Source: a candidate division WOR-1 bacterium RIFOXYB2_FULL_45_9 (GTDB lineage: Bacteria > Margulisbacteria > WOR-1 > O2-12-FULL-45-9 > XYB2-FULL-48-7). Taken from it: 64,000 nucleotides of DNA. The position numbers were made by a program, and so were the translations under genes. The notes under the pieces were generated by a model that was given only the letters and a program-made list of their open reading frames with translations, did no database searches and was not told where the DNA came from. The DNA lies in NCBI GenBank assembly GCA_001771575.1, contig MEUD01000001.1, positions 1,179,277-1,243,276 of the forward strand. Reading direction: 5' to 3'. Positions 44,914 to 46,542 of the stretch are shown piece after piece (within the stretch, counting starts at the first letter, position 1; every line of letters begins with the position of its first letter).

Positions 44914-45594
44914 TTAATAGTAGTAAGTAGCCCCTGAAGAGAAAATGTCAAACTCACTTTTAATATTCCTTTTTACAAGATTATATGGCCGCAGATCCGA
45001 AGAGATTTTCCAATCGCCGTACTTTTTATAAATTGCCCAACAACAATAATCTGCTGCTTGTAAATAAAAATTGGACTCACTATTGTGAAAATATATATGA
45101 TATGGTTTTTTATTGTGATTGTACTGTCTAGCTAGAAAGATTTTAATGCTTTTTATTAGTGCCTCAGTGCGCCTACTCAGGTTTATTTTGGAGAGATAAA
45201 TTATTATTTTCCCTATGCGATTTTCATCGTATCTATTTAAAATATACTGCAATAAAGCGGAATCAAATCTTGTATAAAATTGTACGTTGTTCCTTAGACT
45301 GGGGTGTGTTTTTGCTTTTTCAACAATAACGGAGTCTATTTCAAAGTCATTATTGTTTAATATATTGTAGACTTGATCCCGTACGACTTGTTTGTCTTCA
45401 GTTGCGTGAAACACCTCAAGGCCGTCCCCATCAACATTTAATGTGTGTTTTAATTTGTGGAATTCTTCGCACATCTTATATGGCTGGGCGGTTGTTAAAG
45501 AGGTAAGGATATAATATTTCTTCCCTTTTGGGGAAAAATTAAAGTCCCCACTTTCGTCAATAAATATATAAATATTGTTTTTTGATGTTACCAT
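44914..45594 (-). CDS. DUF3800 domain protein
   Basis: 226 aa. IYIFIDESGDFNF at the N terminus is the family signature (conserved Asp-Glu-Ser-Gly-Asp), and the C-terminal half has QAADYCCWAIYKKYGDW, also typical. DUF3800 proteins have an RNase H-like pattern of acidic residues and are scattered in mobile and defence-rich regions; function unproven. Base composition is much more AT-rich than both flanks, a sign of recent acquisition. TATAAT occurs about 24 nt upstream of the start. Confidence 0.82.
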   Translation of the reverse strand: MVTSKNNIYIFIDESGDFNFSPKGKKYYILTSLTTAQPYKMCEEFHKLKHTLNVDGDGLEVFHATEDKQVVRDQVYNILNNNDFEIDSVIVEKAKTHPSLRNNVQFYTRFDSALLQYILNRYDENRIGKIIIYLSKINLSRRTEALIKSIKIFLARQYNHNKKPYHIYFHNSESNFYLQAADYCCWAIYKKYGDWKISSDLRPYNLVKRNIKSEFDIFSSGATYYY

Positions 45595-45877: not shown

Positions 45878-45943
45878 TTCCCTGCGTCCGCTTGGGGCGG
45901 ACGAGCGCATAAAAAAATGGAGAGGGAAGCCCGCCTCCGGCGG
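45878..45943. repeat. Hairpins of the GTCCGC/GCGGAC type
   Basis: GTCCGC-TTGGG-GCGGAC (45886-45902) and CCGCC-TCC-GGCGG (45931-45943). The first sits between CTTCCCT and AGGGAAG, again a nested arrangement. The GGCGG/CCGCC core is shared with the insertions in the broken tRNA-Tyr. Confidence 0.7.
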
Positions 45944-45978: not shown

Positions 45979-46017
45979 GTTCGCTTCGCGAACGCCAAAT
46001 TTGTGGAACAAATTTGG
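45979..46017. repeat. Two palindromes at the 3' flank of tRNA-Tyr
   Basis: GTTCGC-TTC-GCGAAC (45979-45993) and CCAAATTTGT-GGA-ACAAATTTGG (45995-46017). The second overlaps the last bases of tRNA-Tyr; in the tRNA direction it could fold just past the 3' end and mark processing or termination. Confidence 0.7.
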
Positions 46018-46097
46018 AGAGGGAAGGATTTGAACCTTCGAAGGCGTTAGCCGTCTGATTTACAGTCAGATGCGTTTGACCACTTCGCTACCTCTCC
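46015..46097 (-). tRNA. tRNA-Tyr (GTA), intact copy
   Basis: Minus strand: acceptor GGAGAGG/CCTCTCC plus discriminator A; anticodon arm with loop CTGTAAA, anticodon GTA; long class II variable arm (GGCTAACGCC); T arm AAGG TTCAAAT CCTT. CCA not encoded. The GIY-YIG reading frame enters from upstream and stops inside the variable arm, so mRNA and tRNA overlap by about 51 nt on the same strand. Confidence 0.96.
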
Positions 46098-46352
46098 ATA
46101 ATTATCAAGTTGCAGTAGGCGTTTAAGCTCTTCACGGCCTTGGCCTGACTTGAGAAATCGTTCCCGTCTCATTGCCTCGGCCCGAGTATTATACCGTTCC
46201 CGATGAATCAAAGTCCACGGTTTGCGGCCTTTGGTATATCTTGAGCGCCCTTCATTGTGCTCTATTAGTCGTCGGTCAGGATCAGAAGAGTTGCCGACAT
46301 ACAATGTGCCAAAAGAAATACTTTTTAAGACATAAGTCCAGAACCCCACCAC
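46047..46352 (-). CDS. GIY-YIG endonuclease-domain protein fused in frame into tRNA-Tyr
   Basis: 101 aa. WTYVLKSISFGTLYVGNSSDPDRRLIEHNEG holds the GIY-YIG core (catalytic Tyr and Arg), and RRERFLKSGQGREELKRLL the catalytic Glu and the domain end. The last 16-17 residues (GEVAKWSNASDCKSDG) are a translation of the 5' half of the downstream tRNA-Tyr. AGGGGG lies before the GTG start. Stand-alone GIY-YIG proteins are widespread; substrate here unknown. Placement between a broken and an intact tRNA-Tyr suggests a selfish or tRNA-linked element. Confidence 0.8.
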   Translation of the reverse strand: MVGFWTYVLKSISFGTLYVGNSSDPDRRLIEHNEGRSRYTKGRKPWTLIHRERYNTRAEAMRRERFLKSGQGREELKRLLQLDNYGEVAKWSNASDCKSDG

Positions 46353-46402
46353 AACTGCCCCCTAAAAAACGAATTTAAAAACTTATTTGAAAGTTGTTAA
46401 AA

Positions 46403-46496
46403 CCGTCTGATTTATCCTCCAGAGGCGGATGTCCCCATCCGCCTGCGGCGGACGTTTGACCACTTCCCTGCCCGCCTTTGGCGGGGCTACCTCTCC
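46403..46496 (-). pseudogene. Broken tRNA-Tyr 5' half with two palindromic insertions
   Basis: Matches the intact tRNA-Tyr in three blocks: 46487-46496 (acceptor strand), 46453-46466 (D arm) and 46403-46414 (anticodon loop and 3' stem). Between them are a 20-nt insertion with CCCGCC-TTT-GGCGGG, and a 38-nt segment with AGGCGGAT-GTCCCC-ATCCGCCT and TCCGCC-TGC-GGCGGA that replaces the anticodon-stem 5' strand. The 3' half of a tRNA is absent. It lies just downstream of a consensus promoter. Confidence 0.85.
46423..46485. repeat. Palindromic elements inserted in the tRNA-Tyr remnant
   Basis: AGGCGGAT/ATCCGCCT (46423-46444) overlapping TCCGCC-TGC-GGCGGA (46438-46452), and CCCGCC-TTT-GGCGGG (46471-46485). 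The interrupted tRNA sequence shows they are insertions, not ancestral structure. Confidence 0.8.
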
Positions 46497-46513
46497 ACTC
46501 GCTGTCGCTTGTT

Positions 46514-46542
46514 ATTATCAAATGACCAATGATAAATGTCAA
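46514..46542 (-). promoter_or_regulatory. Consensus promoter upstream of the tRNA-Tyr remnant
   Basis: Minus strand TTGACA (46537-46542), a 17-nt spacer and GATAAT (46514-46519). The remnant's 5' end is 17 nt further on. Probably the original tRNA-Tyr promoter, which would now transcribe remnant, GIY-YIG gene and intact tRNA as one RNA. Confidence 0.8.

Follow-up and report, generated by a model that had tools for sequence, protein, structure and literature searches.

Free-standing GIY-YIG genes at tRNA genes are already known, the described case being SegB. SegB of the T-even phages (T4/T6) is a free-standing GIY-YIG homing endonuclease whose gene lies amid the phage tRNA genes (PMC2988022). 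Recent work on the T6 enzyme showed by SITE-seq that it cuts in tRNA genes, with RAWTSGAAC as the preferred motif, and that the segmental amplification of the tRNA-Tyr region in T6 requires SegB (PMC13096335). What does this motif correspond to? Its reverse complement is GTTCSAWTY and, judged by sequence, the motif is the T-loop of a tRNA read on the opposite strand; this identification is made here, the terms T-loop and T-arm not being used in PMC13096335. The motif occurs exactly in 79 of 179 intact tRNAs, and in 111 of them if A is permitted at S. Other known systems share single traits with the locus described below. In fungal mitochondria, in the Allomyces atp6 case, a free-standing homing endonuclease reportedly supplies the replacement for part of the gene that it interrupts; insertion into an essential gene is said to be tolerated there, likewise, through duplication of the missing part, the targets being mitochondrial protein genes. 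The truncated atp6 and atp9 copies of S. borealis are not linked to a nuclease in the accessible part of their description. Mitochondrial DNA also harbours double-hairpin elements, GC-rich hairpin pairs that are scattered over the genome and inserted in RNA genes. Lastly, integrases classically insert at tRNA genes and duplicate the gene's 3' end.

How does our locus compare with these systems? It lies in the window, the whole 64,000-nt stretch of DNA analysed here, from a candidate division WOR-1 bacterium. Like SegB, elements of the window type combine a free-standing GIY-YIG gene, lying between genes beside its target and outside any intron or intein, with tRNA genes; the cuts and the amplification known for SegB come from phage. 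Unlike SegB, they sit on bacterial chromosomes, encode proteins of only 80-100 aa, are found with most tRNA isotypes and in four phyla, and leave hairpin-bearing tRNA fragments next to an intact copy. Compared with the mitochondrial double-hairpin elements, their hairpins are bacterial, occupy exact loop positions of tRNA and tmRNA, and are linked to a nuclease family. The arrangement has the look of a family of mobile elements that reside in tRNA genes and had not been described before. In the open-licence literature we found no account of bacterial chromosomes on which GIY-YIG genes are accompanied by tRNA fragments, nor a description of the multi-phylum chromosomal setting, of tRNA duplication at either end or of hairpins at loop positions. 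On the minus strand of the window, a SpoU methylase gene and a small gene (MAEKVMKCGIKKEKGYLYF...) are followed by a promoter, a broken 5' copy of tRNA-Tyr, the GIY-YIG ORF and an intact tRNA-Tyr, past which come a hairpin-rich linker and a 12-nt copy of the tRNA 3' end:

46514..46542, minus strand: native tRNA-Tyr promoter TTGACA-17-GATAAT, 11 of 12 matches; conserved in the same-genus locus L047, where it abuts an intact tRNA
46486..46497, minus strand: broken 5' copy, block 1, tRNA positions 1-12, TGGAGAGGTAGC, exact match
46467..46485, minus strand: 19-nt hairpin insert CCCGCCAAAGGCGGGCAGG, costing no tRNA base; -10.7 kcal/mol, z -4.0
46453..46466, minus strand: broken 5' copy, block 2, tRNA positions 13-26, GAAGTGGTCAAACG, exact match
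46415..46452, minus strand: 38-nt double hairpin TCCGCCGCAGGCGGA-TGGGGACA-TCCGCCTCTGGAGGA in place of tRNA positions 27-36; -25.1 kcal/mol, z -4.2
46403..46414, minus strand: broken 5' copy, block 3, tRNA positions 37-48, TAAATCAGACGG, exact match
46047..46352, minus strand: GIY-YIG nuclease ORF, 101 aa from GTG, domain at residues 4-70 (PF01541, 49.6 bits)
46015..46097, minus strand: intact tRNA-Tyr(GTA), Rfam 67.8 bits
45930..46013, minus strand: hairpin-rich linker with 3' terminus TCCGCCGGAGGCGGG; its final 50 nt, 3' copy included, are 96% identical to L047rc 2313-2362
45918..45929, minus strand: second copy of the 12 nt at the tRNA 3' end, CTTCCCTCTCCA, running into the native downstream flank TTTTTTTATGC; 23 nt equal the tRNA/flank junction of L047
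45745..45903, minus strand: hairpin-rich stretch beyond the native 3' end, closing with CAAATCC; 93% identical to L047 and resembling a stretch in L027

The promoter is the top-scoring one of the region, and the three blocks behind it (12, 14 and 12 nt) are colinear with the 5' half of tRNA-Tyr, GC-rich hairpins standing between them. The blocks were placed by exact-match chaining, as a MAFFT alignment misplaced them. A second possible start, TGGACT-18-TATAAT at 46217-46188, could serve the intact tRNA. Blocks 1 and 2, 26 nt in all, are contiguous in tRNA-Tyr and are split by the 19-nt hairpin in the broken copy; the replaced positions 27-36 are the 5' strand of the anticodon stem and part of its loop. 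Of 1268 control stretches taken from the window, just 3 contain even one exact tRNA-Tyr match of 12 nt or longer, so three colinear blocks behind a promoter are not a product of chance. The final codons and the stop of the ORF lie inside tRNA-Tyr (46047-46097), and the genome has no tRNA-Tyr besides the intact copy. Such ORFs frequently have their stop codon within the tRNA gene that comes next (the window, L018, L020, L021). The promoter, the three blocks, the ORF and the complete tRNA had been reported in an initial annotation, and are borne out by the promoter score, the exact in-order matches, PF01541 and Rfam; the hairpins filling the gaps and the 12-nt 3'-end copy (45929-45918) had been overlooked. 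Directly downstream of the element lies a DUF3800 gene (44914-45594).

What did the site look like without the nuclease gene? In L047 the upstream context is that of the window (same SpoU gene, small gene and promoter), and an intact tRNA-Tyr sits directly behind the conserved promoter, with neither GIY-YIG gene nor 5' fragment. Directly behind this tRNA come TTTTTTATGC and a stretch rich in hairpins, both of which lie after the 12-nt 3' copy in the window; the two sequences are identical for 23 nt over the junction of 3' copy and flank, then 93% identical across 163 nt. As the intact tRNA of L047 abuts the same promoter, the 5' fragment of the window is the 5' end of the old gene. Given that the flanks are continuous with L047, the old tRNA-Tyr gene extends over the interval that begins with the broken 5' copy and closes with the 12-nt 3' copy, and the intact tRNA-Tyr of the window borders native DNA on neither side. 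This agrees with the earlier proposal that the broken copy is the original gene at its old promoter, and supports a second one, that the intact tRNA-Tyr relies on a duplicated 5' part. The accompanying idea that the native 3' half stayed in use has to be amended: the bases after the intact tRNA are not the native 3' flank, which follows the separate 12-nt copy, so plain retention of that half does not describe the intact tRNA. The native 5' half is indeed broken, as was thought, yet not by mere decay, for its D-arm and anticodon arm received hairpin inserts, a feature of dozens of other loci too.

A single insertion carrying a whole tRNA and two successive duplications would both explain the arrangement in the window. 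A two-step origin, in which a 5' duplication with the nuclease gene was followed by a 3'-end duplication with a hairpin, is likely because each kind of duplication is found separately elsewhere. L047 has an additional tRNA 3' copy downstream (CAAGTCC, hairpin, CTTCCCTCTCCA), so the tRNA-Tyr site was struck more than once. The comparison with close relatives suggested by the initial annotation gives several states of the site. L047 offers the empty allele expected for a free-standing homing endonuclease; L048, from another genus of the same family, has two broken halves and an intact tRNA at the same locus and lacks the GIY-YIG gene; the outgroup loci L049 and L051 have the tRNA with neither a GIY-YIG gene nor visible copies.

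The search for relatives of the window protein covered 57 genomes from its own phylum and a genome collection, and an 18-row profile was run on phylum samples of members of the Patescibacteria, Bacteroidota and Acidobacteria. Among the 211 GIY-YIG domains (180 loci) of this sample, which was collected partly by a profile made mostly from tRNA-linked members, 121 have a tRNA on the same strand at most 150 nt away and none has one on the opposite strand. The partner tRNAs span most isotypes. The UPF0213-like GIY-YIG genes of the window's phylum serve as a natural control for this link: their branch shows no attachment to tRNA genes, with one lying nearby for 1 of 12 members, compared with 42 of 57 among the others. 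On the far side of the GIY-YIG gene, 84 of 112 testable loci match their own tRNA exactly over 12 nt or more (median 17), as opposed to 0.9% when tRNAs of other isotypes are used; in the other 28 testable loci a clear far-side tRNA fragment was not found. In the window's phylum and in Patescibacteria, the GIY-YIG gene mostly precedes the intact tRNA and the fragment is a 5' part upstream of it. Bacteroidota and Acidobacteria mostly show the mirror order of intact tRNA, GIY-YIG gene and 3' fragment, and on one Bacteroidota contig (L185 1186-3952) eight GIY-YIG units stand in tandem, and after each of them comes a tRNA 3' fragment that contains a hairpin. At least four bacterial phyla share the arrangement of GIY-YIG gene, intact tRNA and broken tRNA with hairpins exactly in its loops. 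A 5' half duplicated by a nuclease-bearing element, initially regarded as unusual, is the usual form upstream of GIY-YIG genes in the window's phylum; a search for further GIY-YIG genes with partial tRNA copies had also been suggested initially. Elsewhere in the window genome (G000:C1:110584 and 113271; L207 and L208) there are tRNA-Ser(gct) 3' fragments with double hairpins, with no GIY-YIG gene detected within the stretch examined.

The window protein belongs to the GIY-YIG superfamily, its family being invariant for Y, Y-x-G, R, H and E; no fitting NCBIfam model was found for it. The closest solved structures are of UPF0213/YhbQ type (1zg2, E ~3e-16; 1ywl, ~1e-15) and then SLX1 (~1e-6), structure-specific nucleases. 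The tRNA-linked proteins, of about 80-100 aa, lack the additional DNA-binding region that known homing endonucleases have. Orthology with T-even SegB was not recovered by tblastn against phages: at 1e-4 the matches were from Listeria, Staphylococcus and Microcystis phages and one uncultured phage record, with T-even phages absent, and a single-protein search found no relatives in viral contigs. On a tree of 107 GIY-YIG domains the partner isotype changes 53 times against a shuffled mean of 77 (0 of 200 shuffles as low), which suggests that the isotype is inherited along the tree, while jumps also occur between close relatives; with few supported branches in the tree, both are to be read as trends. 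One such jump lies within a single genome, between L007 (Tyr) and L103 (Gln), whose DNA is 75% alike over the ORF and ~55 nt upstream, a double hairpin in the T-loop included.

And what of the hairpins? At 94 insert junctions in tRNA fragments, 78 inserts fold as hairpins better than shuffles (z<-2), and 65 are inserted with no loss of tRNA bases. They are located in the D-arm, T-loop and anticodon arm and are often double. Fifteen, spread over seven isotypes and three phyla, come immediately behind the T-loop TTC. Many others lie in D- or anticodon arms, which are not known to have a SegB-like motif; those of the window all do so, no T-loop insert being preserved there. The insertion zone is weakly clustered on the GIY-YIG tree (22 changes, 27 in shuffles, 1 of 200 as low). 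Hairpins of the type TCCGCCN3GGCGGA, whose density within 300 nt of GIY-YIG genes is 17 times that of the flanks, replace tRNA-Tyr positions 27-36 also in L019 and L020 (Tyr), and the corresponding segment in L010 and L011 (Arg, Acidobacteria). A second type, TCCCG..CGGGATCCCG..CGGGA, is present in 17 of 20 relatives, a reversed control pattern giving no match. Of its 53 distinct matches, a few of which overlap one another and some of which come from loci chosen for their GIY-YIG gene, 21 sit precisely at the GTTC^RA of a copied tRNA or tmRNA, 13 more in or near tRNAs and 19 elsewhere. At the many loci with T-loop inserts, the hairpin site in the bacterial fragments would be the very site favoured by a SegB-type enzyme. 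Most of the sampled double hairpins have no adjacent GIY-YIG gene, so that independent movement is possible. In the simplest cases of this kind (L235, L237, L241, L247, L255), an intact tRNA or tmRNA is followed by a short spacer and then by its 3' end once more, the T-loop of which contains a double hairpin; in the tmRNA duplicates at L235 1501-1588 and L241 1501-1582, which adjoin the intact gene, the hairpin sits precisely in that loop. At L229 (~1501) a double hairpin interrupts the T-loop of a tRNA-Gln, and the short contig piece holds no intact copy.

We consider the locus to be, probably, a chromosomal, free-standing, SegB-like GIY-YIG homing-endonuclease element living in tRNA genes. 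Its anatomy, the occupied and empty alleles, the recurrence and the hairpins placed exactly in loops are established by the sequences, whereas cleavage, mobility and the part played by the hairpins are inferred. The small nuclease would cut a tRNA gene in a loop, often in the T-loop at GTTC^RA and otherwise in the D- or anticodon loop. Recombinational repair of the break would import the nuclease gene, or a hairpin, and at the same time duplicate part of the tRNA gene, leaving one whole copy and preserving gene function. As the tRNA is essential, selection would retain only outcomes that leave a whole tRNA. The other copy would persist as a 5' fragment upstream (window's phylum, Patescibacteria) or as a 3' fragment downstream (mostly Bacteroidota and Acidobacteria). 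The loop hairpins of this residual copy probably block re-cutting of the fragment and probably lower the loop-out recombination that would delete the element. Against this reading, a single genome has the T-loop motif in many of its tRNA genes, and some further factor would have to shield these and the intact copy. The small proteins without the DNA-binding region, the 28 loci with no clear far-side fragment, the inserts in D- and anticodon arms and the double hairpins away from GIY-YIG genes also count against it. A more far-reaching version, to which we lean somewhat less than half-way, is that a minimal GIY-YIG nuclease opens tRNA-like genes, tRNA and tmRNA, at their loops in several phyla, that the double hairpins are its non-autonomous passengers, which enter exactly at GTTC^RA and neither add nor remove target bases, and that the gene is regenerated by partial duplication. 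If true, tiny nucleases and hairpins at tRNA genes, with either tRNA end duplicated, would form a separate and widespread class, and essential single-copy tRNA genes would become safe harbours. This would account for a conspicuous share of the small GIY-YIG genes and tRNA fragments of Patescibacteria and Bacteroidota, would connect the freshly mapped phage enzyme SegB with a chromosomal counterpart, and would make bacterial hairpin mobility testable at a defined target site.

Could the hairpins be the true mobile element? In this main rival, double hairpins move independently into tRNA and tmRNA loops with partial gene duplication, and GIY-YIG genes merely follow, settling in dispensable tRNA pieces. 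The spread of one double-hairpin pattern over 17 of 20 relatives fits this, as does the fact that most sampled copies are GIY-less, many of them positioned at GTTC^RA where the 3' end of a tRNA or tmRNA has been duplicated next to the intact gene. Genes that merely settle there would nevertheless hardly be so tightly positioned and invariably co-directional with the tRNA, a setting that the UPF0213-like branch lacks. The 17-fold enrichment of TCCGCCN3GGCGGA ties hairpins to GIY-YIG genes, and the hairpins alone encode no enzyme. We thus regard this account as unlikely, and prefer the nuclease-borne element. A quite improbable reading is that the unit is not mobile at all, the GIY-YIG protein acting on tRNA (RNA cleavage, defence or a toxin-antitoxin function) with the fragment as a decoy or regulatory RNA. 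The constant same-strand order, the overlap of ORF and tRNA and the five GIY-YIG genes found after RNase P RNA would suit such a unit; its patchy presence at syntenic sites, the many isotypes, the mirrored layouts and GIY-less remnants such as L048 would not. Very improbable, and contradicted by the recurrence, is a plain tandem duplication with decay that caught a small nuclease gene by chance: tandem tRNA copies and their decay are common, but chance would not yield the strand bias, own-tRNA fragments so far above the control, or hairpins placed exactly at GTTC^RA with no base lost in unrelated tRNAs and phyla. Group I introns and tRNA-targeting integrase elements both use tRNA genes, but the intact tRNA-Tyr is uninterrupted, the window has no Rfam intron match and no integrase-like ORF lies between the tRNA copies (in line with the initial view of a nuclease-bearing element rather than an integrase), which leaves this last explanation with next to no likelihood.

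Some GIY-YIG genes accompany other RNA genes. In five genomes a GIY-YIG gene lies 78-266 nt downstream of RNase P RNA on the same strand (L036, L038, L042, L068, L072). At RNase P- or tmRNA-linked GIY-YIG genes a duplicated RNA fragment was not found, which confines the fragment rule to tRNA (and to hairpins in tmRNA copies). Some loci of the RNase P-linked group have repeated CCAACTT...AAGTTGGTGTGGGG terminator-like hairpins. At another locus, L085 413-1134, group I intron matches overlap a GIY-YIG ORF.
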